Source of the DNA: a virus
Direction: 5' to 3' (one strand)
DNA length: 38,841 bases
Virus record (IMG/VR): IMGVR_UViG_3300042691_018004
Coordinates: 1 to 38,841 of that record
Part shown: piece by piece, positions 7,421 to 29,127 of the stretch
Numbering within the stretch: position 1 is the stretch's first letter
Layout: each line of letters starts with the position of its first letter
The notes under the pieces: model-generated
What the model saw: the letters and a program-made list of their open reading frames with translations, nothing else
Told to the model about the DNA's origin: nothing
Databases searched by the model: none
Made by a program: the position numbers and the translations under genes

Positions 7421-7914
7421 GCGCTCACCTCTTTCGCCCATGCCCGCGCTCGGTGGAGGTCGGCGAGGTAGATCCCGTGGCGGTCGATGTAGAGGCGCCC
7501 GTCGCGGTGCAGCCGGTTCACGTGCTTCGAGACCGTGTCGCGTGCCAGGCCGAGCTCGGCGGCGAGAGCGGTGATGGTGCCGTTCCATGCGCCGAAGGTC
7601 CCGAGGTGGTCGAGGATGATCTTCTCGGGGTTGGGGCGCACAGGCTGGCCGGCGCGCCGTGCCCAGTAGCGGCGGCGGCGATGCTCGCGCTCGCGCTCGA
7701 CCTCGTCCATGCCGCCCCAGATCCCCTCTGGCTCGCGGTTGGCGATGGCGTGGTCGAGGCACGCCTGGCGCACCGGGCAGGCGGCGCAGATGGCGCGGGC
7801 GGCGGCCGTCTTGCGCCGGTTCGTCGGGTAGAACAGCTCGGGCGACTTCGTCCGGCAGGCGGCCTCGAGGCGCCAGTCGGTCGGCTCAGGCCGCGGGGTC
7901 TCGCTTCCAGCCAT
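7417..7914 (-). CDS. WhiB-family iron-sulfur regulator fused to a winged helix
   Basis: A 165-residue protein. The WhiB domain (about residues 12-80) has the four cluster-binding cysteines C20, C43, C46 and C52 (C-x22-C-x2-C-x5-C) and a GIWGG turn at 64-68. It is followed not by the usual short basic tail but by a winged-helix domain (about 97-160): ILDHLGTFGAWNGTITALAAELG, then ARDTVSKHVNRLHRDGRLYI, ending with a basic region. Host WhiB proteins bind the main sigma factor and redirect transcription; phage copies can interfere with host WhiB control. The added DNA-binding domain suggests promoter-specific action. ATG 7914 overlaps the PhoX stop as TGATG. Confidence 0.88.
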   Translation of the reverse strand: MAGSETPRPEPTDWRLEAACRTKSPELFYPTNRRKTAAARAICAACPVRQACLDHAIANREPEGIWGGMDEVEREREHRRRRYWARRAGQPVRPNPEKIILDHLGTFGAWNGTITALAAELGLARDTVSKHVNRLHRDGRLYIDRHGIYLADLHRARAWAKEVSA

Positions 7915-8969: not shown

Positions 8970-9172
8970 CGTTCGCCCCGTTCCCACGCCGCGCACACGG
9001 CGTCGATCCAATCGGACGCGTGGTCAAACAAGTTGGCGTCCATGCTGAAACCGCCGACATCGCGCATGTCGGTTGCGATCAGCCGCATGGTCTCGGTCGG
9101 CGGGCGATCCTCCATGAGTGCCCGCAGCGAGGTGGCGTGCAGCTCCCTCGCTCGGTCGTGATCCACTGCCAT
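8966..9172 (-). CDS. small hypothetical protein
   Basis: A 68-residue protein with no recognised domain, helical and mildly acidic. The ATG at 9172 was chosen because AAGGA lies 6 bases upstream; an ATG one codon earlier would overlap the preceding stop as ATGA. It is coupled to the PhoX gene by a 4-base overlap. The tight spacing supports its reality. Confidence 0.6.
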   Translation of the reverse strand: MAVDHDRARELHATSLRALMEDRPPTETMRLIATDMRDVGGFSMDANLFDHASDWIDAVCAAWERGER

Positions 9173-9285
9173 CATCTGTCCTTCCGGTGTTGGGCGAGCG
9201 CCTTTCGCCACGCCTCGCAGGCCTCGCAGCCGCACCCGGCCCGGGCTGCACGGGCGCAATGGTCCGCGGCAGGGTGCGCGGTCAT
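9172..9285 (-). CDS. 37-residue cysteine-rich miniprotein
   Basis: A 37-residue open frame that fills an otherwise empty gap. It starts with ATG overlapping the previous stop (ATGA at 9282-9285) and ends with TGA overlapping the next ATG. The sequence has C10 followed by CGCEAC (C18, C20, C23), a zinc-knuckle-like spacing, then a basic helix AWRKALAQHRKDR. Function unknown. Perfect coupling on both sides argues that it is translated. Confidence 0.55.
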   Translation of the reverse strand: MTAHPAADHCARAARAGCGCEACEAWRKALAQHRKDR

Positions 9286-9524
9286 CGCCGCGCCCGCCAG
9301 AACGAAACCCGATCAGCGGGCCGCACCTCAGGGCTGCGGAACCCGGGCAAATCGGCCAGGCGGCACGTACCGGCCACGGCATCACCCGGCGACACGGTGT
9401 GCCCGCAATCGCGGCACACACCATCACTGTTCGGATCGTGCAGCAGCAGCGCCGCACAAAGCCCCGGCCGCGGCGCCACCCACTGACGCAACAACTCAAG
9501 AGTGGCAGTAGTCGTGTCACCCAC
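9282..9524 (-). CDS. small hypothetical zinc-binding-like protein
   Basis: An 80-residue protein starting with GTG. Its first 11 residues (VGDTTTATLEL) match the start of the upstream XF1762-family protein, including the way the start codon overlaps the previous stop by 8 bases. The rest has C23, then CRDCGH (C37, C40) and C54, a possible zinc ribbon: cysteines of SDGVCRDCGHTVSPGD resemble short zinc-finger proteins of actinophages. Function unknown. The shared N-terminus looks like a recombination or duplication joint. Confidence 0.6.
   Translation of the reverse strand: MGDTTTATLELLRQWVAPRPGLCAALLLHDPNSDGVCRDCGHTVSPGDAVAGTCRLADLPGFRSPEVRPADRVSFWRARR
9492..9524 (-). repeat. duplicated gene-start module, copy A
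   Basis: A 32-base direct repeat of 9985-10016 (29 of 32 identical; the three differences are silent changes in third codon positions). It covers the start codon, the overlapping stop of the previous gene and the first 11 codons. The copies are 493 bases apart. Confidence 0.85.
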
Positions 9525-10017
9525 GATGGCCGACCCAACGGACCCAACGGTCCTTGTCGCCTGCGGGCTTGCGCTCGTTTCCGAACAGGTCAACGTGTTC
9601 ACGACCCAGGCGCGATTCCCACCCGTTTACTGGTGGCGATACGCGGGCATCCAAGGTGAACCCAGCTGCTCGCAGCGACGAACCCGGTTCGGTCTCAAGC
9701 GTGTACGTGATGACCCGCCGATACCCGAGTGCCCCCGCCGCCCGACAGATGGCGCCGTAGAGCATCGAATTCGCGTTCTTGGCGCCTTGCGTGCAGGTGC
9801 GGGTCACTTCAAGAGTGCGGCCGTCGTCCATATGTCGGGACACGGGGCGAGACGCGATAGCGACGCCGAGCAGGACGCCTGACCCGTCAGTTACGCCAAC
9901 GCCCCACTTCCACCCGACCGGAGGCAGATTGTGGCGGTGATGCTGGGCGACGAACCGGCGAGCCTCTGCGAGTGTCACGGGCACCAACTCGAGGGTGGCG
10001 GTAGTCGTGTCACCCAT
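9517..10017 (-). CDS. XF1762-family protein
   Basis: A 166-residue protein of the XF1762 family common in phages and mobile elements. It contains VTLAEARRFVAQHHRHNLPPVGWKW, then VGVAIASRPVSRHMDDG, LEVTRTCTQG, ANSMLYGAICRAAGALGYRRVITYT and SLRAAGF. The layout resembles a GNAT acetyltransferase fold, but the family's reaction is not established to my knowledge. The ATG at 10017 overlaps the resolvase stop by 8 bases (ATGGGTGA). The N-terminal GDTTTATLEL precedes the usual family start and is copied at the next gene. Confidence 0.82.
   Translation of the reverse strand: MGDTTTATLELVPVTLAEARRFVAQHHRHNLPPVGWKWGVGVTDGSGVLLGVAIASRPVSRHMDDGRTLEVTRTCTQGAKNANSMLYGAICRAAGALGYRRVITYTLETEPGSSLRAAGFTLDARVSPPVNGWESRLGREHVDLFGNERKPAGDKDRWVRWVGHRG
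9985..10017 (-). repeat. duplicated gene-start module, copy B
   Basis: Partner of the repeat at 9492-9524. It spans the end of the resolvase gene and the first 11 codons of the XF1762-family gene. Confidence 0.85.
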
Positions 10018-10471
10018 CAGCCATCGCCCCGTACCGTGCGATGAGCGCCGCCTCTGCCCTGCCGTCGTCCTTGACCCGTGCGAACCATGACGCCTGCGCC
10101 GGCCACAGCTCCACGGCCCTCTGTCGGGACGTGTTCTTGTCGGCGGTGACCCGCTGCGCCCGCTTCCATCCGGCGGCGCTGATGTGATGCACGGGCACGC
10201 CGAGCGCGCCGAGCGCGCCCAGGATCGCCCCGTAGTTCTCGGCGAAGGTCCAGCCGCCGCGCTGGCCGGGCATGTAGCCCACCTTCTCCACCCACGCCTC
10301 GCAGATCGTGAAGGGCTTCCAGTCCTCCAGCAGCGCAGCGATGGAGGCGCCGAGTGCGGCGCCGGTGGCCGGTGGCATGTCCTCCACGGCGACAAGGGCC
10401 ATCGTCCCGGTCTCGATGATGGCGAGTGCGCCGTTCTTGCCCGGGTCCACGCCCAGGAGCCACTCGCTCAC
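10010..10471 (-). CDS. RuvC-like Holliday junction resolvase
   Basis: A 153-residue protein of the phage RuvC-like group. GVDPGKNGA carries the first catalytic aspartate (D9) with the Gly-rich strand-turn, WVEKVG supplies a glutamate (E62), and DDGRAEAALIARYG near the C-terminus supplies the final acids (D135, D136, E140). It resolves branched DNA before packaging. The length is typical of phage versions. The GTG start overlaps the upstream stop as GTGA, and the stop overlaps the XF1762-family start. Confidence 0.87.
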   Translation of the reverse strand: MSEWLLGVDPGKNGALAIIETGTMALVAVEDMPPATGAALGASIAALLEDWKPFTICEAWVEKVGYMPGQRGGWTFAENYGAILGALGALGVPVHHISAAGWKRAQRVTADKNTSRQRAVELWPAQASWFARVKDDGRAEAALIARYGAMADG

Positions 10472-10581
10472 AGCTCGTCCTGCCAGAGCGCCCAGATGAG
10501 GGCGGCGACGCAGACGACGATGATCGCGGCGGCCAGGGCCGCGGCGGCGTAGACGCCGGGGTTCGTGATGGCGGCGCTCAC
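10468..10581 (-). CDS. 37-residue single-span membrane protein
   Basis: A 37-residue protein starting with GTG, with one hydrophobic segment (about residues 10-32: VYAAAALAAAIIVVCVAALIW) and a short acidic C-terminus. GTGA overlaps at both its start and stop. Function unknown. Small early membrane proteins of temperate phages can act in superinfection exclusion or host modulation, which is only inference here. Confidence 0.65.
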   Translation of the reverse strand: MSAAITNPGVYAAAALAAAIIVVCVAALIWALWQDEL

Positions 10582-10811
10582 GACGCGGCCTTCGGGCGGG
10601 TCATGACGAACCGGGCGCGGGTCTCGTGGTCTTGCTGCGCCTTCGCCCGGCGCACCTTGTGGAGCCACTCCAGGGCGAGCGACTCCTGCGCGTCGAGGTC
10701 GCGGTCGATGGTTACGAAGCCGATGCGACAGACCCAGTCGCCGCCGGGGTGCTGGGTGATCGTGATGTCGCCCGGTTCGGGCCAGATGGAGACGTGGGTC
10801 TGTGCGTCCAC
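10578..10811 (-). CDS. hypothetical early protein
   Basis: A 77-residue protein with a beta-rich N-terminal half (VSIWPEPGDITITQ, DWVCRIGFVTI) and a charged helical C-terminal half. It resembles no domain I can name. The start is a GTG at 10811 with AAAGGA about 9 bases upstream. It is the first gene after a 209-base non-coding structured stretch, so it may begin a transcription unit covering the resolvase and replication genes. It ends in KAAS, encoded by a sequence that recurs at two other gene ends (11301 and 11501). Confidence 0.65.
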   Translation of the reverse strand: MDAQTHVSIWPEPGDITITQHPGGDWVCRIGFVTIDRDLDAQESLALEWLHKVRRAKAQQDHETRARFVMTRPKAAS

Positions 10812-11020
10812 GGGGTGCTGTCCTTTCGTCGTGGGTCGGTGGGGTCGGGCCGGTACCGAGGGGAGCGATGCCGGTGGCCGACCCCACCTGGTCGCCCCGC
10901 CTGCTTGCCTCGGAGCGCCTCCCCGGCGGGGATGGTGGGGTGGTGCTCAGACGAGGTGCAGGCGGGGCGGCCGGATGATGCCGACCGTCGCTTCGGTCGA
11001 TCAGATGACGGCGGAATGGA
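10812..11020 (-). other. structured non-coding region with two long inverted repeats
   Basis: No gene is seen. Two perfect long inverted repeats lie side by side: GGTGGGGTCGG (10838-10848) with CCGACCCCACC (10878-10888), and CGCCCCGCCTGC (10893-10904) with GCAGGCGGGGCG (10958-10969), the second enclosing a small inner hairpin CCCC/GGGG. A smaller one (GACCG/CGGTC) lies near 10983-10999. This looks like a transcribed structured element: a terminator pair, an attenuator or a structured RNA upstream of the replication genes. No promoter could be pinned down. Confidence 0.5.
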
Positions 11021-15567: not shown

Positions 15568-16245
15568 TCAGCTGGCAGACACGAGCCGCTTGAGGCGCTC
15601 GGCGTTCTCGAGGATCACCTGACGCATCGAGCGCCCCTTGACCGCGTAGTCGGCGTGGAGCTCGCGGACCTTCTTGAGGAGCTCGGCCTGTTCGGCATCG
15701 GTGAGTGCCATGAGTGGTCCCTTCGAGGGTGGCTGGTAGGTGAGTAGGTAGGCGATGCGCTGGCGGGCCTGATCCATGTTCACGCCGGCCGGGTCGATCT
15801 TGCGGCCCGGGTCGGTCTCGCGGTGCGCCTTGACGTGCGAGGTGTTGAGCTTGAGGTGCCGCAGGATCGCGGCGGTGCCACGGTCCCAGGCGGCGATCTG
15901 GGCGGCGGGCCAGGTCTCGCCGATCCCGTTGTTGTACGCCTCGATCCCGATCGACTGGTTGCCCCACGTGCCGTAGCCGTTGTGGTTGGACTTCCCCGAG
16001 GCGATCACGACGAAGGTGCCGTCGCGGGTTAGGCCGAGCTGGGAGAGCGGGCCGGGCAGGTCCGGGCGACCGTTGCGCAGTATCGCCGCCATGGTCGCAT
16101 CCGAGGTGCTGCGCCCGGACGCGGTGTGATGCCACACGATGCCGCGCACCTCGGAGAGCGTGCCGCCCGAAGTGCGCCATCCGGGCAGCTCGTCCACCCG
16201 GCACCCGGCGTCTCGCAGCACGTCGGCGAGCCAGGTGAGCCTCAT
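15568..16245 (-). CDS. endolysin, N-acetylmuramoyl-L-alanine amidase
   Basis: A 225-residue amidase_2/PGRP-type endolysin. It has GIVWHHTASG (zinc ligand H39/H40), SIGIEAYNNG, and HVKAHRETDPGRKIDP (H141 and D151) forming the metal site that cuts the amide bond between peptide and muramic acid in the wall. A C-terminal segment (about 180-225, TDAEQAELLKKVRELH and following) is charged and helical and may be a wall-binding or oligomerisation piece. No signal peptide is present, so release depends on a holin. The ATG at 16245 overlaps the preceding small membrane protein stop as ATGA. Confidence 0.93.
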   Translation of the reverse strand: MRLTWLADVLRDAGCRVDELPGWRTSGGTLSEVRGIVWHHTASGRSTSDATMAAILRNGRPDLPGPLSQLGLTRDGTFVVIASGKSNHNGYGTWGNQSIGIEAYNNGIGETWPAAQIAAWDRGTAAILRHLKLNTSHVKAHRETDPGRKIDPAGVNMDQARQRIAYLLTYQPPSKGPLMALTDAEQAELLKKVRELHADYAVKGRSMRQVILENAERLKRLVSAS

Positions 16246-16385
16246 GGCCGCCACCCTTCGGTGAGGTGGCCGGCCCAGCGGACCGGCCGAGTGGCCTCGT
16301 TCCACGCCCAACCGGCCACGATTGCGGCCGTCGCGGTGGCGGCCAGGGCGGCGAGGTGGAGGCGACGTGCTGCGAGCCGCGTCAT
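16242..16385 (-). CDS. 47-residue membrane protein in the lysis cassette
   Basis: A 47-residue open frame between holin and endolysin. It has a basic N-terminus MTRLAARRLHL, one hydrophobic segment (about residues 9-27) and a Trp-containing polar tail. The ATG at 16385 lies 3 bases after the holin stop and its own stop overlaps the endolysin start (ATGA). It could be a second holin or antiholin, or a holin regulator. The tight position supports its reality. Confidence 0.6.
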   Translation of the reverse strand: MTRLAARRLHLAALAATATAAIVAGWAWNEATRPVRWAGHLTEGWRP

Positions 16386-16388
16386 GGC

Positions 16389-16556
16389 TCAGCTCGTCGG
16401 ACGGTTCAGGAAGGCGAGCAGGGTGGAGATGGCACCGGCGACGGCGGCGACCCAGAGGGCGGCCTGCTCCTCGGTGATGAGCCCATAGCCCGCAGCGAGG
16501 GCGATGATCGCCGTCGCGAGCGAGTACACGGCGGAGCGGATCTCGGGTGATGGCAT
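16389..16556 (-). CDS. holin
   Basis: A 55-residue protein with two hydrophobic segments (about residues 9-25 and 32-50: SLATAIIALAAGYGLI and LWVAAVAGAISTLLAFL) linked by a short polar turn TEEQ. This is the profile of small actinophage holins, which form membrane holes that release the endolysin. The ATG at 16556 has AAGGAG 8 bases upstream. It directly precedes the small membrane protein and the amidase gene. Confidence 0.8.
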   Translation of the reverse strand: MPSPEIRSAVYSLATAIIALAAGYGLITEEQAALWVAAVAGAISTLLAFLNRPTS

Positions 16557-16588
16557 GGCGGGGTCTCCTTGTTGGGGATCTTGCGGGC

Positions 16589-19500
16589 TCAGGCGAGGAG
16601 CCAGGTATTCGTCGTGCCGGTGCCGACCTTGAAGGCGGTGAGGCGCTTGCCCTGGGCCTGCGTCGTGGTGGACCCGGTGACCAGGCCGGCAGACGCGGCG
16701 GCGCTGTGAGTGATGGTCCCGGCTCCGAGGTTGAGCACCTCGATGCATGTACCGACTGGGATAGCCGTGGCATTGGCGGGCCATTCCATCGTGGACGCGC
16801 TCGCGTTGCTGCGAGTGATCATCTTGCCCTGATCGGCCAGGACGACGGTGTAAGCGGTGCCGGTCTGTGCGTTCACTACGTGGCGGCGCCCAGCCACCAT
16901 CACGCCCGATCCATCCAGGCCAACAGCGAGCGCACCAGCAGCAGAGCGGGCGAGAAAGGCGTCAGGATCGGCGGTGCCGGACCCGAGCCCGAGCAGCGGG
17001 GTGCCGATGAAGGAACCGAACGACATCGCCGGGTGTGTGTGCGCGTCCGACGGGAACAGCTTCAGTGACGCTACCGAGGCGCTATCCGGCGACACCTCGA
17101 CGCGCCCGTTCGTGCCAGGGTCGAAGGTCGTCGAAGCGTTCACGGTGACCGCGCCGGTGACGGTGCCGCCCGAGGTCTTGAGCCACCCCATGCTGTCGAG
17201 CGCCTCGACCTCGCAGCGGGTGAGAGCCGGGAGCGTGGGCGTCAGGGCCGGGTCGGTCAGGTGTGCGTCGACGGCGAAGCCGTGCATGGTGGAATGCTTG
17301 ACCGAGGCGTCGAGCGGGAGATCCGTTCCGTAGGTGCTCCAGTTGGTGAGCAGCACGCCGTCGAGGTAGACCTTCACGTTCTCGCCGTCCGATACGCACT
17401 CGATGTCGCGCTCGGTATCGTCGGTGTGCGTCATCGCGTGCGTCGCGATGTCGTAGTTCGCGAACTGCTCCGGCGGGTCGCAGATGTAGCCGGCGATCAG
17501 CGCCGGGGCGCCCAGGATCTCAGTCGGCCAGACCCCGAAGCCGAAGCGGGTCGAGCCCGGGGTGACGTGGAGGAGCGGCGTCGCCTCCACGTGGGTCTCT
17601 TCGGTGACGCCGATGTTCCCGGACCAGCGCACGAGCACGCGCGCCGCCCTCGAGCCGGTGTCCCGCCAGGCGCAGCCGATGCCCATGTAGAGCTGGCCGC
17701 CGGTCGGCGGGTCGGCCGAGATCGGGAGCGTGTCGTAGGTGCCCGGCCGGGTCATGGGGTCAGGGATGACCACCTTCCCGCTGAGGATTCCGAGCGGCTC
17801 GAACGAGTCGGGGAACTCGGTACCGCCGTCGACCCACCGGGTGCCGACGGCGTCCAGTGGGCCGTCGGCCCGGTCGAACTCGTCGGTAAAGATCCGCTTG
17901 CCCTGCTGCGACGCGTAGGGACCCTTCTCGGCGAAGGTGTCAGAGGCCCAGGCGCGGTCGCCGTGCGGGTCTGTAGCGGCCGAGTGGGTGGTGATGGCGC
18001 CGGCGGCCTCGTAGGCCGTCGAGTCGGTCGTGGCCGCCGTCCCGAGCCCGAGAGCAGTGCGCCCTGCGGCGGCGTCGGCGAGCGCTAGGAAGGCTCGCCC
18101 GTATGCCGTCGTCGTGAGCGCGGCGATCGCGGTGAGATCGGAGTCGAGCGGTTGAGAGGCGGCGATGGCGGCGGCCTGAGCGCTCGCGGCCGAGCCGGCG
18201 GGGTCGAAGTCGCCCGTTGCGGCCACCGCGGCGCTACCGAGCCCGAGAGCGGTGCGCCCCGCAGCAGCGTCGGCGAGGGCCAAGAACGAGCGGCCGTATG
18301 CCGTCGTCGTGAGCGCGGCGATCGCGGTGAGGTCTGAGTCGAGCGGCTGAGACGCAGCGATCGCCGCGGCCTGAGCGCTCGCGGCCGAGCCGGCCGGGTC
18401 GTAGGCCGTCGAGTCGGTCGTGGCGGCCGTCCCGAGGTTCAGGGCAGCTCGAGCCGCGCTCGGATTGTCGACGCCCGAGAGGTCGTTTACGAGCCCGGTG
18501 GCGAAGTTCTGCGCGGCGGTCTGGGCGGTGGAGGCCGAACCGAGAGCGTCGTAGAGGGCGTCGTGGTCGTGGGCGCCGGCGACCGAGGGATGCATGTCCC
18601 AGACGGTCTTGTCCATCGCGGTCCGCACCGGGGCGTCGCCCAGGCCGCCAGAGCCGCGGATCTGATTGCGGAAGCGCTCGTGACCGACGCCGTCCTCGAA
18701 GCAGTCCCACTCGATCACGCCGATCGTGTTGTTGGCCCACGAGAGCGACGCGCCGGTGGCGAGCGCGAGCTTCGTCTTGCGTAGACCGCGGCAGTTGCGG
18801 AACAGCACTGAGAAGCCCATCGAGGCGGCGTAGTCGCCGGCGGCCGTCGGGCCGAAGGCGATCGTGGCGCTCGCCGGGACGGTGCCCCAGAACTCCACGT
18901 CGTCGAAGTGGATCTTCTGGCCGTTGTCGGTCGGGCTCGCGGCGATGATGCCGCCCTCGGCGTTGTCGAGGTAGGTGCATTGCAGGCGGCCGCCGTTGAC
19001 GATGAGCTTCGAGTAGGGGCCGAGGATCGCGAGCTGGTTGCTGTTCTCGCTCTGCCAGTCCTTCACGAAGAGCGTGTTGTCGGAGGTGAGGCGAAGGTCG
19101 GTGGCGCAGGCGTTGAAGGCGACGTTGTAGAGGCTCAGCGTGGAGGCGGTGCGGATGCCGGCCAGGAAGCCGGTGAAGGTGCAGTCGCGCACCGAGGACC
19201 AGACCGCCTGAGTGTGAGCGTTGCAGTCGATGCCGTAACCGAGCTGGTTCTTGTTTCGGAAGGTGCTGTTCGTGATCCGAAACTCGTCGGTGTTCACGTT
19301 GTCGCCCGAGATGAGCAGGACGGAGCTCACCTCGCCGTAGTCGGTGCCACGCGTCGCCCAGGTGTAGACCCCGGCGTGCATCGAGTCGATGGTGAGGTAG
19401 CGGTTCGCGGACTGGGTGTCCTCGGTGCGGCTCTCGTAGTGCCAGACGGCGCTCGGCTTGGCCGAGTCCTTGCCCTCGATTCGGAAGTTGCGGAAGGTGG

Positions 19501-20161
19501 CGCCGGACGTGTCGCGCAGGCGGAAGATCGGAATCCCGGCGGCGCCGTCCCAGATCACGACCGAGCCGGCGCCGTTCGAGGTTGGGGCGGCGTTGTCGTA
19601 GGTCGGGCTGTTGCCCCATCCGGCGCCCTCGAAGATCACGCCGGAGCGGTAGAGGTCGATCGTGGTCGTTACCCGGTACTGGCCGGGCGGAATGTAGACA
19701 TGAGCGCCGACGACGCCGTATTCGGGCGAGGCCGGGTAGTCGGCGGCGGCCTGGAAGGCGGCGTTGCAGATGGCGACGCCGGTCGGGTCCGCGCCGAAGT
19801 CGTCCACGAGGTTGAGCATCGTGGCGGCGGTGCCCGGATGGGTGTGGCCGAGCTGGGAGTAGCGGGCGTCGCCCCGAGCGTTGTTGAGATACTGGGTATG
19901 GTCGTCGTCGCCGAGCCCGGTGAGCGCACCGTGGTCGCTCGTGCCGCCCCCGCCGGCCGGGGTCGCCCAGGTGTTGTCGCCGCGGAGGTACGTGGTCGCG
20001 TCACGGGTCCCGGTCGCCGTGAGGTCGGTGACGCCGTGGGTGTGCGCGAGCGCCGCGTAGTCGGCGTCGTGGTCGTGCGGGACATCACCCTCGGTCGCGG
20101 CGGCGACGGCGAAGGTCGGCCCGGAGCGGGTCACGGTTCCGGTGATGACGTACTCGGCCAT
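16589..20161 (-). CDS. tail spike/fibre with pectate-lyase-like beta-helix
   Basis: A 1190-residue virion protein. The N-terminal 110 residues have HDHD/THxG repeats typical of fibre attachment regions. At about residue 118 VDDFGADPTG...AAFQAAADYP and VYIPPGQYRVTTTIDL begin a right-handed beta-helix of the pectate-lyase-3 type, running to about residue 490. Next come Ala-rich AGRTALGLG repeats, including two 65-residue units (about 588-717), a lectin-like central domain (TDEFDRADGP to about 980) and a C-terminal region with HTHPAMSFGSF and a final beta-rich tip. It probably binds and may degrade host surface polysaccharide. ATG 20161 overlaps the previous stop as TAATG. Confidence 0.87.
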   Translation of the reverse strand: MAEYVITGTVTRSGPTFAVAAATEGDVPHDHDADYAALAHTHGVTDLTATGTRDATTYLRGDNTWATPAGGGGTSDHGALTGLGDDDHTQYLNNARGDARYSQLGHTHPGTAATMLNLVDDFGADPTGVAICNAAFQAAADYPASPEYGVVGAHVYIPPGQYRVTTTIDLYRSGVIFEGAGWGNSPTYDNAAPTSNGAGSVVIWDGAAGIPIFRLRDTSGATFRNFRIEGKDSAKPSAVWHYESRTEDTQSANRYLTIDSMHAGVYTWATRGTDYGEVSSVLLISGDNVNTDEFRITNSTFRNKNQLGYGIDCNAHTQAVWSSVRDCTFTGFLAGIRTASTLSLYNVAFNACATDLRLTSDNTLFVKDWQSENSNQLAILGPYSKLIVNGGRLQCTYLDNAEGGIIAASPTDNGQKIHFDDVEFWGTVPASATIAFGPTAAGDYAASMGFSVLFRNCRGLRKTKLALATGASLSWANNTIGVIEWDCFEDGVGHERFRNQIRGSGGLGDAPVRTAMDKTVWDMHPSVAGAHDHDALYDALGSASTAQTAAQNFATGLVNDLSGVDNPSAARAALNLGTAATTDSTAYDPAGSAASAQAAAIAASQPLDSDLTAIAALTTTAYGRSFLALADAAAGRTALGLGSAAVAATGDFDPAGSAASAQAAAIAASQPLDSDLTAIAALTTTAYGRAFLALADAAAGRTALGLGTAATTDSTAYEAAGAITTHSAATDPHGDRAWASDTFAEKGPYASQQGKRIFTDEFDRADGPLDAVGTRWVDGGTEFPDSFEPLGILSGKVVIPDPMTRPGTYDTLPISADPPTGGQLYMGIGCAWRDTGSRAARVLVRWSGNIGVTEETHVEATPLLHVTPGSTRFGFGVWPTEILGAPALIAGYICDPPEQFANYDIATHAMTHTDDTERDIECVSDGENVKVYLDGVLLTNWSTYGTDLPLDASVKHSTMHGFAVDAHLTDPALTPTLPALTRCEVEALDSMGWLKTSGGTVTGAVTVNASTTFDPGTNGRVEVSPDSASVASLKLFPSDAHTHPAMSFGSFIGTPLLGLGSGTADPDAFLARSAAGALAVGLDGSGVMVAGRRHVVNAQTGTAYTVVLADQGKMITRSNASASTMEWPANATAIPVGTCIEVLNLGAGTITHSAAASAGLVTGSTTTQAQGKRLTAFKVGTGTTNTWLLA
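18011..18400 (-). repeat. two tandem 195-base repeats in the tail spike gene
   Basis: Two head-to-tail units of 195 bases (18206-18400, then 18011-18205 in gene order), each encoding 65 residues from DPAGSAASAQ to the next DPAG/EAAG. The proteins differ at only a few positions near the unit end (SAAVAATGDF versus TAATTDSTAY). The flanks carry a partial copy of the same motif. Such repeats let fibre length change by recombination. Confidence 0.9.
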
Positions 20162-20517
20162 TACGGGGCCACCTCCACGCGGGTCACGTCCGAGGTCACG
20201 GCGAGACGGTTGCGAGCTGCGCCCGGTCCCGGCCACGTGAAGGCGTCGCCGGTGATCGGGTCGGTAAACTCCACGTCCCAGACGTAGAGGGGACGGGCGA
20301 GCGCCTCGGTCGCCGCGGCCGAGAGCGTGAGGAGCATGTCGCCGGCGTCGGCCGTGATCGTGAACTCGGCGGCGACCACGGTGGCACGCTCCCGGGCGCG
20401 CACCTGGGACACGGGCAGGTAGTCCTCCCAGTCGGCCCAGGGGACTCCGTCCATCTGGAGGTCGGCGATGCGGATGGTCACGGGGTCGCCACGTAGCACG
20501 GGCACGGTCTCAGACAC
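20161..20517 (-). CDS. minor tail protein
   Basis: A 118-residue beta-rich protein (VPVLRGDPVTIRIADLQ; ATVVAAEFTITAD; PLYVWDVEFTDPITGDAFTWPGPG). It resembles small baseplate or fibre-linked proteins that describe a ligand-binding barrel, but I cannot name the family. The GTG at 20517 has GAGGAG 6 bases upstream. Its position between two large adsorption proteins implies a structural or assembly role in the tail tip. Confidence 0.65.
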   Translation of the reverse strand: MSETVPVLRGDPVTIRIADLQMDGVPWADWEDYLPVSQVRARERATVVAAEFTITADAGDMLLTLSAAATEALARPLYVWDVEFTDPITGDAFTWPGPGAARNRLAVTSDVTRVEVAP

Positions 20518-20527
20518 GAGCTCTCCT

Positions 20528-23116
20528 CTAGGGGTTCTTGGTGAGGCGCTGAATCCACTTCACGTCCAGGTAGAACGGCCAGCGATCGGCGGTTGCTAGC
20601 GGGACGTTCGCGATCGGCGAGCCGGTCGAGCCCGTGATCCCGCTGACGGTGCCGTCGAAGTTGACGTTGTTGGCGGTGCCGGTCGTGGTCGGGGTGTAGG
20701 TGCGCGAGCCGTAGGTGTGCGGCGTGGTCGGGCTCGTCACGCTCTGACCCACGTAGGAACCACCTACCCAGTTATCCAGCAAGATCGTCCAGAATGAGCT
20801 GAGCGAGGCTCCGGCCACGAAGGAGTCGTGAACCCACTTCGGGTAGTTGCCGGACCAGCCCGTAGCGTTCTGGCCGGCCGGGCCGATGCCGGTGTTCGGG
20901 TCGAACGGGTCGAGGTAGGTGCAGATCAGCTTCCCGTCGAGGTAGAACTTCATTCGGATCGTGTAGCGGGTGTTCGCCGTGCCGACGGTGTTCCAGACCC
21001 GCTCGACCTCGAAGCCGGCGCGGGTCCACGGCGGGTTATCGGGGTCCGATGGGTCGGCGATGTCGATCGCCTTGCCGTAGCGCGTCGAGCCGGGGAATGG
21101 GCCGGTGAAGTTGCGGTCGCCCGACTGGACGTGCCACGTCCAGGCGTTGCCCATCCAGGGCTTCCCGATCAGGTTCGCGCCGCCGTAGGACCCGCTCGAG
21201 CCGTCGCCACTGTGGAACACGAGTGACGCCCTGCCCGGCGTGTCAGCCGTGAAGGTCTCGGGCCAGTCCACCTCGAACCGGGAGGCCGAGCCATAGGCCG
21301 TGAACCACAGGCACGACCAGAGCGAATGGCCGAGCGGAAAGCGGATCAGCGCCTCGTAGTGCCCCTCGAGCGGCTGGTAGAAGCTGGTCTGGGTTCTGAT
21401 GTAGGCGGATGAGTAGGCGCGCAGCGAGGTGCCGGTGCCCGTGTCCACGTCGTCGGCCTTCAGCCGAATCATGCCGCCGGCCGAGGTGTCGGTCTCCACG
21501 TTCGAGGCCAGCGAGTAGGACTGGGTCCCGTACCAAAGGCCGGTGACACGGTCGGTGCTGCCCTGGCGAGCGTTGACCATGAGGTTCCAGAGCGCTTTCG
21601 CGTTGTTGTTCGTGACCGTGCCGGCGCCGTTCTTGAGCGTCCAGTTGGCCGTGTCGAACTGCATCACCCAGTCGCGGGTGTAGCCGTCCGGGACGGTGGC
21701 CACGAGCGGGTCGGGCTCCACCGGGGCCGCAGGCGTCACGGCGGCCGAGGCCGCAGACTGGGCGCCCGTGCCGACGGCGTTCGTGGCGGCCACCTTGAAG
21801 GTGTAGGCGGTGCCGTTGCTGAGGCTCGTGATCGTGCGGGTCGTGGCCGTGGTGCCTGTGACGATCGGGGACTGAGCTGTGGCGCCGATGTAGGGGGTGA
21901 TCGTGTAAGAGGTGACCGAGGTGCCGCCGGTGTTGGCCGGGGCCGTCCATCCGAGCTGCACCTGGGCGTCTCCGCCGATGATGTCGATGATCGCCGGGGC
22001 CGACGGCGTCGTGGCCGGGGTGACCGACGCCGACGCCGAGCTCTGCGCTCCGGTGCCGACGTTGTTGTAGGCCGCCACCTTGAACGTGTAGGCGGTGCCG
22101 TTCGTGAGGCCGCCGATCGTGGTCGAGGTCGCCGTCGAGGCGTGGTTCGTCTCGGCCTGCGCCGTGGCGCCGATGAAGGGCGTGACCCGGTAGCCGGTGA
22201 TCGCCGAGCCGCCATCGGAGGCAGGCGCCGACCACGTGACGGTCGCGCTCGCCGCACCGCGCACGGCCGAGACGCCGGTAGGCGCGCCGGGCACCGTGGC
22301 AGACGGCGGAGGCGGAGGCGGAGGCGTGGCAGGCGTCACGCCTTCAAGCGGGTCGAACAGTCGCAAGATGTCGAGCTCGTCGTAGCGATCGCTCAAGATC
22401 CACGCGAGGTGGCCACCGCCGGGCAGACCCTCGTCGGCCGACGGCGTGAGCTCGATCCCCGTGTCATTGCAGAAGCCCTCGAGCGAGTCCCAGTCGATCA
22501 CGGTGTCATCGCGTGCGGCGAACACGGTGATCCGGTCAGCGATGCCGGTGTAGTCGGCCGCGTTGCGCACCGGGTCCACGCCGGCCGTAGCGGCCTCGAA
22601 GGCGGCGCGGCCGCCGGTCGACCAGACCTGGGCGAGGCTGGTCTGATAGCCGGCCTGGTCATACATACTCATCATGTCGACGACGGGCACGAACAGGCGA
22701 GCGGCGCCGAAGTTGTCGGGGTTCGTCTCCGCCCAGCGCAGGGCGTTCAGGCCGCCCATGGAGACGCCGACGAGGTTGGCGCGGTCCGGCAGGCCGATCA
22801 CGCCGGCGTAGTCGAGCGCGTCGTCGATGGCGCCGAGGCCGGTCCCGCCTGCGGGATGCGATGTGGTCGGGTGTCCCCAGTTGGCGCCGCACCAGGGGAC
22901 GATGATCGTCCGGCCGGTCGAGGTGAGGGAGTAGAGCCCGAGCGCGAGGTTTGCGTCGATGATGGCGGTCGCGCTCTGCTCATCCGGGAAGGCGTGGCAG
23001 AAGATCACGGGGCGGAGGTTGGGGTTCACGCGCTCGCCGCGCAGGACGAGCAGCGTCGAGCCCGAGTGTGAGACCCACGAGGCGTGGCGGGGCGAGAAGG
23101 GGTGCAGGTAGGTCAT
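20528..23116 (-). CDS. modular tail enzyme: alpha/beta hydrolase + 2 FN3 + GH16-like domain
   Basis: An 862-residue protein with four parts. Residues 1-258 are an alpha/beta hydrolase: FCHAFP near the oxyanion hole, nucleophile GVSMGG (S119), acid in ARDDT (D203/D204) and GGGHLAW (H236). A proline run (265-271) leads to two fibronectin type III domains (about 276-368 and 371-462), each with NGTAYTFKVAA. Residues about 475-862 resemble a GH16-type jelly roll: GHYEALIRFPLGHSLW, then FEVDWPE (E615, D617, E620), the ExDxxE catalytic pattern, and FYLDGKLI. It likely deacetylates or cleaves host surface glycans during adsorption. ATG 23116 overlaps the upstream stop as ATGA. Confidence 0.83.
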   Translation of the reverse strand: MTYLHPFSPRHASWVSHSGSTLLVLRGERVNPNLRPVIFCHAFPDEQSATAIIDANLALGLYSLTSTGRTIIVPWCGANWGHPTTSHPAGGTGLGAIDDALDYAGVIGLPDRANLVGVSMGGLNALRWAETNPDNFGAARLFVPVVDMMSMYDQAGYQTSLAQVWSTGGRAAFEAATAGVDPVRNAADYTGIADRITVFAARDDTVIDWDSLEGFCNDTGIELTPSADEGLPGGGHLAWILSDRYDELDILRLFDPLEGVTPATPPPPPPPSATVPGAPTGVSAVRGAASATVTWSAPASDGGSAITGYRVTPFIGATAQAETNHASTATSTTIGGLTNGTAYTFKVAAYNNVGTGAQSSASASVTPATTPSAPAIIDIIGGDAQVQLGWTAPANTGGTSVTSYTITPYIGATAQSPIVTGTTATTRTITSLSNGTAYTFKVAATNAVGTGAQSAASAAVTPAAPVEPDPLVATVPDGYTRDWVMQFDTANWTLKNGAGTVTNNNAKALWNLMVNARQGSTDRVTGLWYGTQSYSLASNVETDTSAGGMIRLKADDVDTGTGTSLRAYSSAYIRTQTSFYQPLEGHYEALIRFPLGHSLWSCLWFTAYGSASRFEVDWPETFTADTPGRASLVFHSGDGSSGSYGGANLIGKPWMGNAWTWHVQSGDRNFTGPFPGSTRYGKAIDIADPSDPDNPPWTRAGFEVERVWNTVGTANTRYTIRMKFYLDGKLICTYLDPFDPNTGIGPAGQNATGWSGNYPKWVHDSFVAGASLSSFWTILLDNWVGGSYVGQSVTSPTTPHTYGSRTYTPTTTGTANNVNFDGTVSGITGSTGSPIANVPLATADRWPFYLDVKWIQRLTKNP

Positions 23117-23823
23117 CCGGCGCGCACCTCCAGGAGGCAGACGAGGGAGAAGGCGTGCAAGATCCCGGGCGTGATGCTCGTGTCGCTCGGATGGTTCAGG
23201 AACACGGCCACCTGGACCGAGGCGCCCGGCGTCGGGGCGGTGAGGGTGCCGACCTCGGCGAGGCGACAGGTGATCGCTGGGAACACACTCGTGTTGCTGA
23301 CGAAGTTGAGCTCGGTCACGCCCCAGAGGATCTTTGAGGTGACCCAGGCGTCGGTCGTGTAGCGGATCTGGAGCAGCGTCCCGGCAACCGATACGTTCGT
23401 CACCTTGAGAGGCGAGAGCGACACGGTGCAGGTGTTGGAGGGCATCACGAAGCTAGCGGTCGTGAGCTCGGGGACGCGGTAGTAGGTGGCGCCGTTCGTG
23501 GTCGCCAGAGCCGCGGCCGTCGTCGGGTTGGCGCTGGCGAGGATCTTGCCGGCCTCGGTGGAGATCTTGACCCAGTCGTCGGCGTGGACGACGTAGGTGA
23601 CGAGCTCGTCGGTCGCGGTGTAGAGCGTGCCATCGAGCAGACCGACGGGGTCTGGGCGTTCGGAGAGCGGGCCGGCATCGCTGCTCTGGAGCACCACTTC
23701 GCCCGAGGGCAGGAAGCCGTTCACGTCGCGGCGCAGCTCGTTCACGACCTCGCCGATCGCGTTCACATGAGAGGCGAGGACGGTCTGCCCGTCGGCGTAG
23801 TTCGTGGGTAGCGGGTCCACCAT
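23113..23823 (-). CDS. minor tail protein
   Basis: A 236-residue protein. The N-terminus (YADGQTVLASHVNAIGEVVNELRRDVNG) is the kind seen in phage fibre/baseplate proteins that precede a trimeric region; the C-terminal half is beta-rich (VSLSPLKVTNVSVAGTLLQIRY). The ATG touches the previous stop as TAATG and its stop overlaps the next ATG. It probably belongs to the tail tip or fibre base; no enzymatic motif is seen. Confidence 0.7.
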   Translation of the reverse strand: MVDPLPTNYADGQTVLASHVNAIGEVVNELRRDVNGFLPSGEVVLQSSDAGPLSERPDPVGLLDGTLYTATDELVTYVVHADDWVKISTEAGKILASANPTTAAALATTNGATYYRVPELTTASFVMPSNTCTVSLSPLKVTNVSVAGTLLQIRYTTDAWVTSKILWGVTELNFVSNTSVFPAITCRLAEVGTLTAPTPGASVQVAVFLNHPSDTSITPGILHAFSLVCLLEVRAG

Positions 23824-24992
23824 TAGCGGCGCTCCAGTCGGTCGAGGCGTGCAGCATCCCGGGTGATGCGCTTGAGAACGGAAGCGGGGGCTCGGTCGAA
23901 GGTGACCTCGACGGTCTCGCCGCCGTTGCCGTCGTCGGTCACGGTGATCTCATGCACCCGGGCCTCGGTGTCCACGTCCAGGCGACCACGGCGCACGATC
24001 AGCCGGCAGATGTCGCCGAGCCAGAAGGTGGCGGGGCCGTCCCAGACCCCGGGCATGAGCGTCACCTTGTAGCTAGGGCGGATCACTCCACGCTCAGCCA
24101 GCGCGGCGTCGGCCTTCTCGCCGAGAGCGGCCGTCGTCGTGATGTCGGTGTCGCCCTCCTGGGCGTCGAAGCGCCCCGGGTAGATCGGGTTCACCTCGCC
24201 GCTAGGCTCGTAGAGGTCGGCCACCTGGCGCGTCGTCGGCGTCACGCCGTCGGCGCCCGAGAAGCGAATCGCGTTCGCGTAGCCCGAGGGGTCGAGCTGG
24301 CGGGACACCTGCGAGACCGTGTCGCCCCAGACGGCCACGAAGTCGGCCTCGATGCCGCGGCGCGGGTACCACGTGCGGAAGCCCATCTCCGGGGAGATGT
24401 CCCAGTCGAAGCCACCGATCACCTCGGAGAGCTGCTGGATCGCCTCGCCGAGGTTCTTGCCGGCCTCGTAGGTACGATCGCGGGTGACGCCGGTGGCGGT
24501 CGAGGCGTTCGTGATGCCCATCCCGCCGATGAGCTGCGCGTCGGCGATGAGGTCCCAGGCGATCGCCGACTGGTCGATCCCGGTGTAGGTGGCGTCGGCC
24601 CAGATGATGCGCCGGTCCAGCATCGCCCTGTAGTCGGCGGCCGAGAAGGCGACGCGGTGATCGGTCGGCCCCACCTCGTCACCCGAGGGGCCGACGCGGC
24701 CACGGAACAATCGGACCCCGTTTCGCCACGCCTCCACGTCGGTCGTGAGCTCGTCCACCACGGCGGCGCCCGGGTCGTCGCCGGCCATCGCCCACTCGAC
24801 GGACGAGGGCTCGTTCAGTCGGAAGGTGAACTTCTTGGAGGTGGCGCCGATCAGGTCGCTCAGCGCCTCGCCCTGGGGGCTGAGGGCGATGAGGTCCCAC
24901 CGGACCCCGGGCAGGCCGATCTCGCCGTAGTTGACGCCGTAGAGCGAGTCGCCGTAGAGGGCGGTCCCGTAACGACCTGAGGCGTGAGCCAT
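23823..24992 (-). CDS. minor tail protein (baseplate/Gp37-like)
   Basis: A 389-residue protein similar in outline to siphovirus baseplate hub proteins (Gp37-like): an early FTFRLNEPSSVEWAMAG segment, VRLFRGRVGP, HRVAFSAADYRAMLDRR, then LGEAIQQLSEVIGGFDWDI and a C-terminal beta-rich part with FWLGDICRLIVRRGRLDV. These describe a hub domain that attaches fibres to the tail tip. The ATG at 24992 touches the upstream stop as TGATG. The role is assigned by pattern and by position after the distal tail gene. Confidence 0.78.
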   Translation of the reverse strand: MAHASGRYGTALYGDSLYGVNYGEIGLPGVRWDLIALSPQGEALSDLIGATSKKFTFRLNEPSSVEWAMAGDDPGAAVVDELTTDVEAWRNGVRLFRGRVGPSGDEVGPTDHRVAFSAADYRAMLDRRIIWADATYTGIDQSAIAWDLIADAQLIGGMGITNASTATGVTRDRTYEAGKNLGEAIQQLSEVIGGFDWDISPEMGFRTWYPRRGIEADFVAVWGDTVSQVSRQLDPSGYANAIRFSGADGVTPTTRQVADLYEPSGEVNPIYPGRFDAQEGDTDITTTAALGEKADAALAERGVIRPSYKVTLMPGVWDGPATFWLGDICRLIVRRGRLDVDTEARVHEITVTDDGNGGETVEVTFDRAPASVLKRITRDAARLDRLERR

Positions 24993-25993: not shown

Positions 25994-26839
25994 TCAGATC
26001 CAGGTATCTCGCCAGAGCAGATCCGCTACCGACGGCGGCGTCGCAGACTCGGCGGTGAACTCGACGAACGTCGCGCCCGGTGCCAGCGTCCACCAGCTCG
26101 AGGCGCCGAAGTCCAAGAAGCGGTAGCGGCTGGAGCCCGGGTCGCTGTTGAGCGTCACGGTGCGGGTCTGCGAGTCCACCTCGAGGTAGTCGCCGTCGAG
26201 GATCGCGAGCTCGGGGAAGCGCACCACCTGGCCGGTGTTGCGATTGGTGATCGACGGCGCAGAGCACGGGCCGAAGATCTTCGCCGTCCAGTGGGCCGGG
26301 GCGTTGCCGATGTTGTTGACCTGTACCGCGCCGGAGCCGGTGAAGGCCGGGAAGGTGAGCGGCGGATCGAGGGGCGGCGACCAGCCGCCGGCCTCGCCGG
26401 AGGGCAGCAGCGAGTCCTGATGCACCTCGGCGGAGGTCATCACGCCCGACGGTGCAACCCACTGGGCGGCGACCTCAGTGACCGTCGGATTGGTCATCGG
26501 CGCCGAGGCGTCGACCGGGCGCAGCAGCATCGTGCGCGTGCCGCCACTGGTCGGGTCGACGAACTCCATGGTCGGCCGCCGGGCGGGATGAAGGAAGCCG
26601 GTCAGGTGGTCGATCAGGGCACGGCGTGAGGACCAGGACCCGGCCACCACGGCGACCCGCACCGAGACGACCCGGGCGCCGTGATAGATCGTCGTGTCGA
26701 AGGTGCCGTCGGCGCCGGGCCGGTCCTCGACCACGTCGCGGATCGTCGGCCATCCCAGATCGAACTCCTGGCAGACCAGGCCGGCGTCCCAGTCGTCGAG
26801 CACCAGCGGGTCGAGGCCGTCGCATGTAAGGCGGATCAC
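25994..26839 (-). CDS. distal tail protein (Dit-like)
   Basis: A 281-residue protein in the position of the siphovirus distal tail protein, right after the tape measure gene. It has the N-terminal features of that family: VCQEFDLGWPTIRDVVEDRPGADGTFD, then VSVRVAVVAGSWSSRRALIDHLTGFLHPARRPTMEF. The C-terminal part is a galectin-like beta-rich region (WTAKIFGPCSAPSITNRNT, DYLEVDSQTRTVTLN). Dit forms the ring linking the tail tube to the baseplate. The GTG at 26839 overlaps the tape measure stop as GTGA. Confidence 0.85.
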   Translation of the reverse strand: MIRLTCDGLDPLVLDDWDAGLVCQEFDLGWPTIRDVVEDRPGADGTFDTTIYHGARVVSVRVAVVAGSWSSRRALIDHLTGFLHPARRPTMEFVDPTSGGTRTMLLRPVDASAPMTNPTVTEVAAQWVAPSGVMTSAEVHQDSLLPSGEAGGWSPPLDPPLTFPAFTGSGAVQVNNIGNAPAHWTAKIFGPCSAPSITNRNTGQVVRFPELAILDGDYLEVDSQTRTVTLNSDPGSSRYRFLDFGASSWWTLAPGATFVEFTAESATPPSVADLLWRDTWI

Positions 26840-29127
26840 AGGGCGCCCGCCATCTGGGCGAAGCTGAGCTTCCGGGTGAGCACGTCCACGTCGACCTCGT
26901 CTTGGAGAATCACGGGCCCGGTGAAGGTGACGCCCGAGCCGATGGCCGAGCCGTAGGCGGCGGCGCTGAGCTTGTTGTTGGGGACGACCACGCCCGAGGT
27001 GCGCGGCACGAACAGCTCGGGTCCCTCCTCGCCGACGAGGTACAGGCCGCCGGCGTTAGCCGGGCCGCCCCTCGCCAGAGGGCCGGGGATGAGGGGATTC
27101 CCGCCCGTGTCACCCGGGACTCTGAGCTTGGGGATCTTGATGTTGTTGAGCGTCGAGACGACCGACCCGGCCCACCCGAGCACGGTGATGAGCGCGTTGC
27201 TGAGAGCCTCGACCGCCCACCGCACCGCGTCGATGGCGAAGCCGATGTTGCGGAAGCCGAAGGAGATCGTGCCGCCGAAGGCTCCGGCGATGGGGCGCAA
27301 GATATCCATGGTGGTACGGGCGGCCCAACCGAGAGCGTCGAAGGCGCCCTTCACGACGTTCAGAGCGCCCATGAGCTGGCCCCGTAGGACCATGACGAGG
27401 ATGGCGAGGATGGGCAGAACGTCCCGGCGAATCCATGCGGCGAAGTCCCGCACCGCCGGGATCACGTCCTCCTCGATCGTGGTCTCGAGCCTCTCGAGCT
27501 GCGGGATGACCGTGTCGCTGATCTTGAGGGCCAGATCCTCCAGCACGGGGATCACGTCCTCATCGATGAAGGCCCAGAACTCCTCGAGGACCGGGATCAC
27601 GTTCTCATCGATGAACGTCCAGAGCCCTCGCAGGGCGCCGACGACCTCGTTCGTGATGTAGGCGGCGACCACCTGGAGGATGGGCAGAATATCCTCGGTG
27701 AACGTCTGCCAGATCCCTTGGAGCGCGGGCAGGAAGTCGTCGCGGATGAAGCGACCGACGGCGTCGACGGCGTTACGAAAGCCCTCGATGTTCTGGTAGG
27801 CCCAGACCAGGCCAGCGGCCAGCAGGGCGACGGCGCCGACCAGGAGGAGCAGTGGAGCGCTGGCGGCGATCGTGGAGACCGCCGCGGCAGCAGCCGACGC
27901 GGCCCAGGCGATGAAGGCGAGCACCAGCGGACCGGCGATGGCCGCCGCGATCACGGTGATCGTCCCGGTGTTGTCCTTCGCCCAGTTGGAGATGCTCTCG
28001 ATCGCCGGGATCACTTTCTCGGCAATGAAGGTGGCGAGCGACTGGAGAGCCTGCCGCTTGAACGCCTCGATCTTCGTCTTGACGTTGTCGTTGAGCGTGT
28101 CGCCCATCGACTTCGCCGCGCCCTCCACGTCGCCGAGGGCGTCGACGGCGGTGTCCGGGTCGATGGCGTAGAGGGCGTCGCCCAGATCCTCGGCCTGGGT
28201 GCCGAACAGCGCCACGGCGGCGGCCGTGCGCTTCACGGGGTCCTTCATGTTGCGGATCGCCTTGAGCGTCTCGCCGAGCGCCTTCTTCGCCTCGGGGCCG
28301 CCCTTCGCGATCTTGGCGGCCATGTCCTCGGCGTTCAGCCCGACCAGCTCGAAGCCCTCGGCCGTGAGCTTCGAGCCGTCCACCGCCCGGATGCTGAACT
28401 CCTTGAGGGCGTCGGCGACCTTGTCGGCGTCACGGGCACCGGCCCGGAGTCCTTGGGAGAGGATGCCCGTGGCCTCTTTGCCGGTGAGGCCGAGGTTACG
28501 GAACAGCGTCGGGTACTCGGTCAGGGTGTCGAGGAAGTCACCCTGCTTGTCGACGCCCTGCTGGAACCCACGCGTCAAGATGTCCAGCGCCTCGGCGCCG
28601 TCCTCGGCGAGCCCGGTCTTGATGAGCGTTCCGGCCGCCGCGGTCGTCTTGTTGAGGTCCTGGTCGAACGCCGTGGAGAGGTCCAGCACCTTGGCCGTGA
28701 TGGACTCGATCTGAGCGTTCGTCGCGTCCTCGGGAAGCAGCCCCTGCTGGAGCGTGCCGCGGATCGCCTCGTTCACGGTGGCGAGCGAGTCGCCATACGC
28801 CTCGCCGTAGAGCTTGCCGGCGACGGCGCCGAGCTTCTTCGACTCGGCCTCGGGGAGTCCGAGCTGGGCGCCGAGCTTGTCCTGGGCGGCGCCCTGGTCG
28901 AGCGCGTCGGTGAAGCCCTTCGTGAGCGCAGCAGCAGCGAGCACGCCGGCGGCGAGGAGTCCAGCCGTAGCGACGCCCGAGAAGCCAGAGGCGAAACCGC
29001 CACCGGCCTTGCGGCCCGAGTCGTCGGCGATGGAGTCCAGGCCGCCGAGCTCACGCTTGAGACCAGCGGACATTCCCCGGGCCGAGGGGACCAGCGACAC
29101 GTAGGCGGTAGCGAGCTCAACTGCCAT
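26836..29127 (-). CDS. tape measure protein
   Basis: A 763-residue protein, the longest helical protein of the tail block. It has hydrophobic segments (about 50-70 and 395-445) and a TP901-like core with repeated motifs of the type VIPVLEEFWAFIDEDVIPVLEDL (about 500-560). The N-terminus (ATAYVSLVPSARGMSAGLKREL) matches actinophage tape measures, and the C-terminus GGLYLVGEEGPELFVP is also characteristic. At about 1.5 angstrom per residue it predicts a tail of roughly 110-115 nm. The ATG at 29127 overlaps the end of the chaperone fusion by 11 bases. Confidence 0.93.
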   Translation of the reverse strand: MAVELATAYVSLVPSARGMSAGLKRELGGLDSIADDSGRKAGGGFASGFSGVATAGLLAAGVLAAAALTKGFTDALDQGAAQDKLGAQLGLPEAESKKLGAVAGKLYGEAYGDSLATVNEAIRGTLQQGLLPEDATNAQIESITAKVLDLSTAFDQDLNKTTAAAGTLIKTGLAEDGAEALDILTRGFQQGVDKQGDFLDTLTEYPTLFRNLGLTGKEATGILSQGLRAGARDADKVADALKEFSIRAVDGSKLTAEGFELVGLNAEDMAAKIAKGGPEAKKALGETLKAIRNMKDPVKRTAAAVALFGTQAEDLGDALYAIDPDTAVDALGDVEGAAKSMGDTLNDNVKTKIEAFKRQALQSLATFIAEKVIPAIESISNWAKDNTGTITVIAAAIAGPLVLAFIAWAASAAAAAVSTIAASAPLLLLVGAVALLAAGLVWAYQNIEGFRNAVDAVGRFIRDDFLPALQGIWQTFTEDILPILQVVAAYITNEVVGALRGLWTFIDENVIPVLEEFWAFIDEDVIPVLEDLALKISDTVIPQLERLETTIEEDVIPAVRDFAAWIRRDVLPILAILVMVLRGQLMGALNVVKGAFDALGWAARTTMDILRPIAGAFGGTISFGFRNIGFAIDAVRWAVEALSNALITVLGWAGSVVSTLNNIKIPKLRVPGDTGGNPLIPGPLARGGPANAGGLYLVGEEGPELFVPRTSGVVVPNNKLSAAAYGSAIGSGVTFTGPVILQDEVDVDVLTRKLSFAQMAGAL

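Follow-up and report, generated by a model that had tools for sequence, protein, structure and literature searches.

Within the window, a 38,841-base virus record analysed as one stretch, a single gene of the tail module encodes an 862-aa protein with an alpha/beta hydrolase domain at its N terminus and a GH16 domain at its C terminus, joined by a proline linker and two FN3 domains. We regard it as reasonably probable that this protein is a tail-associated depolymerase that first removes acyl groups from an acylated host glycan and then cleaves the chain. Its parts lie at the following positions of the window:

20528..23116, minus strand: CDS of 862 aa, in the order alpha/beta hydrolase, Pro linker, FN3, FN3, GH16
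22325..23116, minus strand: alpha/beta hydrolase domain, residues 1-264, from Pfam and similarity to the Gordonia Kroosvirus esterase
22760..22762, minus strand: predicted nucleophile Ser119 (GVSMGG), invariant in the homologue alignment
22505..22510, minus strand: Asp203/Asp204 (ARDDT), one of which would be the triad acid; both invariant
22409..22411, minus strand: His236 of the triad (GGH), invariant
22304..22324, minus strand: seven-proline linker, residues 265-271, from the sequence
22031..22285, minus strand: FN3 domain 1, residues 278-362, from Pfam
21734..22009, minus strand: FN3 domain 2, about residues 370-461 with approximate ends, from Pfam and PDB FN3 tandem matches reaching 461
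20531..21703, minus strand: GH16 domain (jelly roll), residues 472-862
21257..21274, minus strand: GH16 catalytic motif EVDWPE, residues 615-620 (E615/D617/E620), with invariant E, D, E

The CDS is intact, begins with ATG and shares an ATGA overlap with the upstream gene, while the next gene begins about 10 bases past its stop. Pfam detected two FN3 domains in the whole protein (E 3.5e-24), which also match phage minor tail proteins. The preliminary description had read the layout as a hydrolase, a proline run, two FN3 domains and a jelly roll with an ExDxxE motif, and the Pfam and profile/HMM evidence agrees; the residue numbers that it gave for S119, D203/204, H236, E615/D617/E620 and the proline run are all correct on the translation. 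The whole protein also matched titin and other proteins of eukaryotes, through FN3 similarity only. No relatives of the whole protein were found at E 1e-5 in a search in which repeats were possibly filtered, and single-sequence searches of viral_contigs returned no close relatives of either enzymatic domain. An early scan of 19 prophage-bearing genomes gave a single marginal match (E 0.0086).

By sequence, the N-terminal domain is an alpha/beta serine hydrolase, and its nearest relatives make it esterase-like. Pfam searches with the whole protein placed Abhydrolase_1 (27.2 bits, cut-off 25.8) and Esterase (25.8 bits, cut-off 22) above their thresholds, and with residues 1-264 alone the two families reached E-values of 1.1e-7 and 2.3e-6, respectively. 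The closest phage relative of the domain is the esterase of Gordonia phage MoontowerMania (pairwise E 9e-10, about 28-34% identity). The earlier claim of an intact Ser-Asp-His triad is supported at this level, as Ser119, Asp203, Asp204 and His236 are invariant across the four aligned phage hydrolases (that of the window and three IMG/VR relatives, the latter from one phage group). Alpha/beta hydrolases with a Ser-Asp-His triad cut acyl or peptide bonds via an acyl-enzyme. Structure prediction, which the preliminary description had proposed as a check, was informative for the C-terminal domain, whose model matches GH16 folds (see below), but not for the N-terminal one, whose model (pLDDT 49, pTM 0.54) is of too low quality for its catalytic geometry to be judged. 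The structure matches of the hydrolase model were mostly alpha/beta hydrolases, none of them significant (E at least 4.6e-3, Z at most 6.8), and Foldseek returned no match under 1e-3 for this poor model.

The C-terminal domain had been called GH16-like by eye, and Pfam indeed reported nothing for residues 472-862, as PF00722 (GH16) does not detect the domain. Other comparisons bore the assignment out. Single-sequence searches found no close relatives of the domain among phages; in the PDB, a Nocardiopsis beta-1,3-glucanase was a borderline match (E 0.0033). Matches to VDAC were at chance level. Among 394 actinomycete genomes, two GH16 enzymes from one genome were recovered (E 2.9e-9 and 3.5e-7), both of which carry Pfam GH16. 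A profile comparison of the C-terminal domain with seven GH16 domains scored 93.6%, and hhalign against the five nearest GH16 domains scored 97.5% (E 5.4e-12) over residues 84-320 of the C-terminal domain. An HMM built from these five detected the whole protein at E 1e-13, compared with 0.037 for the best of 2,000 shuffles. A first alignment-based search (A1) yielded no confirmed viral relative, and a broader GH16 alignment search yielded 59 viral loci. Cellular and viral GH16 domains align with the C-terminal domain through the motif and the C-terminal strand, and the only invariant columns in 14 viral GH16 domains (that of the window and 13 others) are E, D, E and the Trp of the WPAFW region. 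On their own the motifs are weak evidence: shuffling the C-terminal domain at matched composition produced ExDxxE in 0.65% of cases, and shuffling the N-terminal domain produced GxSxG in 16%. They count because they fall on invariant columns of homologues.

An AlphaFold2 model of the C-terminal domain, built from the window's domain and 11 viral rows, had a mean pLDDT of 52 and a pTM of 0.65. All of its top 50 Foldseek matches were of the GH16 type, comprising laminarinases, agarases, carrageenases and O-glycanases (best E 9.4e-10). VIA-align superposed it on beta-agarase A (Z 18.9, rmsd 3.3, 241 aligned), and an archaeal laminarinase likewise gave Z 18.9. As the alignment behind the model consisted of GH16 rows, this result is not independent of the sequence evidence. 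Taken together, the alignments and the model give good support for placing the domain in GH16 (beta-bulge type) with the catalytic Glu-Asp-Glu kept. Family membership is better supported than any substrate, because the GH16 matches span glucanases and galactanases alike; substrates across the family include beta-1,3 and beta-1,4 glucans, agar, carrageenan, porphyran and mucin O-glycans. Such genes are frequent in the presumed host class, with 130 of the 394 genomes positive at E 1e-8, so the domain may plausibly have come from the host.

The gene lies in the tail module of what reads naturally as a temperate actinobacteriophage of the siphovirus type. The window has a GC content of 0.68-0.73 along its whole length and encodes a terminase, portal, scaffold, capsid, tail terminator, major tail protein and tail assembly chaperone, further tail genes (tape measure, Dit and a Tal-like protein), and an endolysin, an integrase, exonucleases, a primase and a WhiB-like gene. 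Its large terminase is closest among phages to that of Streptomyces phage Kromp (55%), and in bacterial genomes it matches mostly actinobacterial loci (58% in Streptomyces natalensis). The host probably belongs to soil-type actinobacteria. Around the 862-aa CDS, we annotated:

26836..29127, minus strand: tape measure protein
25994..26839, minus strand: distal tail protein Dit
23823..24992, minus strand: tail endopeptidase-like (Tal) protein, with Pfam Prophage_tail above cut-off and a PHROG minor tail protein match
23113..23823, minus strand: upstream neighbour of 236 aa, overlapping the start of the 862-aa CDS by 4 bases (ATGA)
16589..20236, minus strand: tail-spike-like protein of 1215 aa with a pectate-lyase-like domain, downstream of the 862-aa CDS
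15568..16773, minus strand: endolysin

The setting is thus the tail-module one described at the outset, with Tal, Dit and the tape measure upstream and the pectate-lyase-like spike downstream, and from this gene order we infer that the 862-aa protein is located in the virion. The spike-like protein itself (16589-20236, minus strand) contains repeats that are near-duplicates of one another (LDSDLTAIAALTTTAYGR...) and, around residues 830-1030, what may be a lectin-like region.

To place this architecture among other GH16 proteins of phages, we compared 53 proteins (the window protein, five phage GH16 proteins and 47 from IMG/VR), which form a sample and not a census. Pfam GH16 was matched by 49 of them (E 1e-3), Lipase_GDSL_2 by five and FN3 by two, and an Abhydrolase match was present in the window protein only. 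Phages are known to carry each of the two enzyme types, but neither this set nor the searches made here contained another protein with the same architecture, and the pairing of an alpha/beta hydrolase with GH16 was not found elsewhere; nor did the open-access literature on GH16 in phage tails describe it.

The nearest parallels come from Curtobacterium phages. The minor tail protein gp9 of Pippin15 carries GH16 at 143-271 and GDSL at 586-887, and its relatives in Eevee (gp9) and AddiRose (gp10) have the same GH16-then-GDSL order, their C-terminal halves containing GDSI and SPDGLH motifs. The GH16 half is common to seven Curtobacterium phages, three of which were checked for the SGNH part. The three proteins with GH16 and SGNH/GDSL parts (PQ868951.1, PQ868987.1 and PQ868986.1; L033:3817-6501, L034:3001-5826 and L035:3001-5745) are annotated only as minor tail proteins. 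Like the 862-aa protein, the Curtobacterium proteins combine GH16 and an ester hydrolase in one chain, and in Eevee the following gene reads as a beta-helix-type spike, as the window's CDS is followed by a spike, there pectate-lyase-like. Unlike it, they place GH16 at the N terminus and SGNH/GDSL at the C terminus and have no FN3, whereas the window protein begins with its alpha/beta hydrolase, ends with GH16 and has two FN3 domains; the GH16 domains themselves are distant (pairwise E 0.026). Judged by motifs, two metagenomic phage proteins also combine the two kinds of sequence: one has GH16 followed by an SGNH-type sequence (L049:3551-5332), and in the other an SGNH-type stretch seems to interrupt the GH16 sequence (L067:56-4702). 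Together with the Curtobacterium proteins, they make an ester hydrolase plus GH16 a recurrent tail-protein design, and, given the different esterase folds and the reversed domain order, such fusions seem to have more than one origin. Two GC-rich metagenomic phages, L044 and L045, have GH16 domains that are among the closest viral ones found, and in L044 the GH16-containing, actinophage-like tail protein comes directly after Tal; unlike the window protein, the GH16 proteins of these phages have no esterase. Each of these two loci also has a second GH16 gene near the first (L044:6811-8511 and L045:3881-5887; HMM E 1.3e-15 and 7.9e-30), whereas the window has only one.

Other systems share single features with the window protein. 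The Kroosvirus esterase, MoontowerMania gp24, has the triad in common with the window hydrolase and likewise lies inside a structural gene region, but it is a stand-alone protein of 241 aa with a separate glucosaminyl deacetylase as its neighbour (positions 8698-10830 of OR283206.1, our L001). The beta-glucanases of the Sinorhizobium phages phiM12, phiM19 and RHph_X2_24 are also phage-encoded GH16 enzymes, but they have no esterase domain and lie outside the tail genes in the stretches examined. Curtobacterium prophages encode depolymerases that carry an alpha/beta hydrolase or an SGNH domain (PMC9862828). The alpha/beta-hydrolase type, proposed as a depolymerase, resembles the window's domain in its Ser-Asp-His triad and comes from an actinobacterial prophage; it differs in that the description of it names no GH16 partner (PMC9862828). 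Gp44 of Staphylococcus phage phi11 similarly unites two enzymatic domains in one tail protein, one of them an SGNH hydrolase, but its partner is an endopeptidase and not a glycanase (PMC5380687). Tail proteins that only deacetylate are known as well, from the Vi phages and c341 (PMC5380687).

The preferred reading of the 862-aa protein as a two-enzyme depolymerase would work as follows. The alpha/beta hydrolase (S119, D203 or D204, and H236) would remove ester groups, that is, acyl decorations, and the GH16 domain would cut the backbone of a beta-glycan on the host surface by the retaining mechanism of its family; the esters could sit on this polymer or on a neighbouring one. In the ExDxxE type of GH16, which comprises retaining endo-hydrolases, one Glu is the nucleophile and the other the acid/base, roles that E615 and E620 would divide between them, with D617 assisting. 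The FN3 domains and the proline spacer may keep the two enzymatic domains apart. In the simplest joint role, deacylation and backbone cleavage would act on one acylated host polymer at adsorption, so that surface polysaccharide would be cleared during entry. The idea of ester removal combined with glycan cleavage, put forward in the preliminary description, agrees with the layout and the motifs, and it gains independent support from unrelated phages that pair GH16 with a different esterase (SGNH); the poor N-terminal model adds nothing on catalytic geometry.

How acyl groups bear on cleavage can be illustrated with succinoglycan. York and Walker reportedly found in 1998 that succinyl and acetyl groups both influence its cleavage, and ExoK and ExsH belong to GH16. 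In S. meliloti exoH mutants, which make succinoglycan without succinyl groups, only the uncleaved high-molecular-weight form is produced (PMC4916376), which shows that acylation can determine whether a glycanase acts. In this case succinyl groups seem to promote cleavage, not to block it, and the effect of acyl groups in the substrate of the 862-aa protein could go either way.

We weighed three other explanations. The GH16 domain might bind glycan without cutting it, as a pseudo-enzyme or lectin, making the protein an adhesin with one active enzyme. A proline inside EVDWPE, absent at that place from the viral relatives compared, leaves room for such an inactive domain; the WPAFW motif of the relatives reads WSCLW here, and the nearest folds of the model include Rv0315, which its PDB title calls a pseudo beta-1,3-glucanase. 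However, the catalytic E, D and E, the His after them and the Trp of the motif are all retained, whereas a domain in decay should have lost them, and we consider this explanation quite unlikely. Rather than glycan esters, the hydrolase might target envelope lipids (as a LysB-like enzyme or lipase), a polyester or a peptide bond, with the two domains attacking different layers. Its weak structure and profile matches do span esterases, cutinases, prolyl oligopeptidase and homoserine acetyltransferase, and the host could be one of the actinobacteria that have a complex envelope. Glycan deacylation is nevertheless favoured by other phages in which GH16 is paired with an esterase of a different family and by the position of the Kroosvirus esterase next to a glucosaminyl deacetylase, and neither a LysB nor a cutinase family was among the Pfam matches listed for the domain; a non-glycan target thus seems unlikely.

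The protein could also be a soluble late enzyme, released at lysis, that frees progeny or disperses the surrounding matrix. In its favour, no virion-attachment region was recognised in the protein, including at its N terminus, and the endolysin gene is nearby, beyond the spike gene. Gene order inside the tail module and the overlap with the upstream gene speak against it, as do FN3 domains that match phage minor tail proteins and relatives annotated as such, which leaves the soluble enzyme improbable.

If the depolymerase reading is right, an acylated beta-glycan, not usually considered a barrier in actinobacterial hosts, would be present on the actinobacterial surface as a layer that phages must strip and cut, and the protein would provide a ready two-step enzyme with which to test this. 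The design escapes annotation pipelines, as Pfam misses the window's GH16 domain and the Curtobacterium counterparts are labelled only as minor tail proteins. A broader proposal, which we offer tentatively and with some doubt, is that fusion of an ester hydrolase to GH16 has happened repeatedly and independently in phages because deacylation must precede cutting. Such fusions would mark hosts with an acylated surface beta-glycan, and the 862-aa protein would be a further architecture with an unrelated esterase fold.

Two other genes of the window stood out. The gene at 9517-10395 (minus strand) encodes a Mom-like DNA modification protein (PHROG E 4.7e-31), which suggests that the phage DNA is modified. 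In the ORF at 7417-9060 (minus strand), residues 391-470 match WhiB-like regulators and are preceded by a long N-terminal part; its true start may be further downstream.
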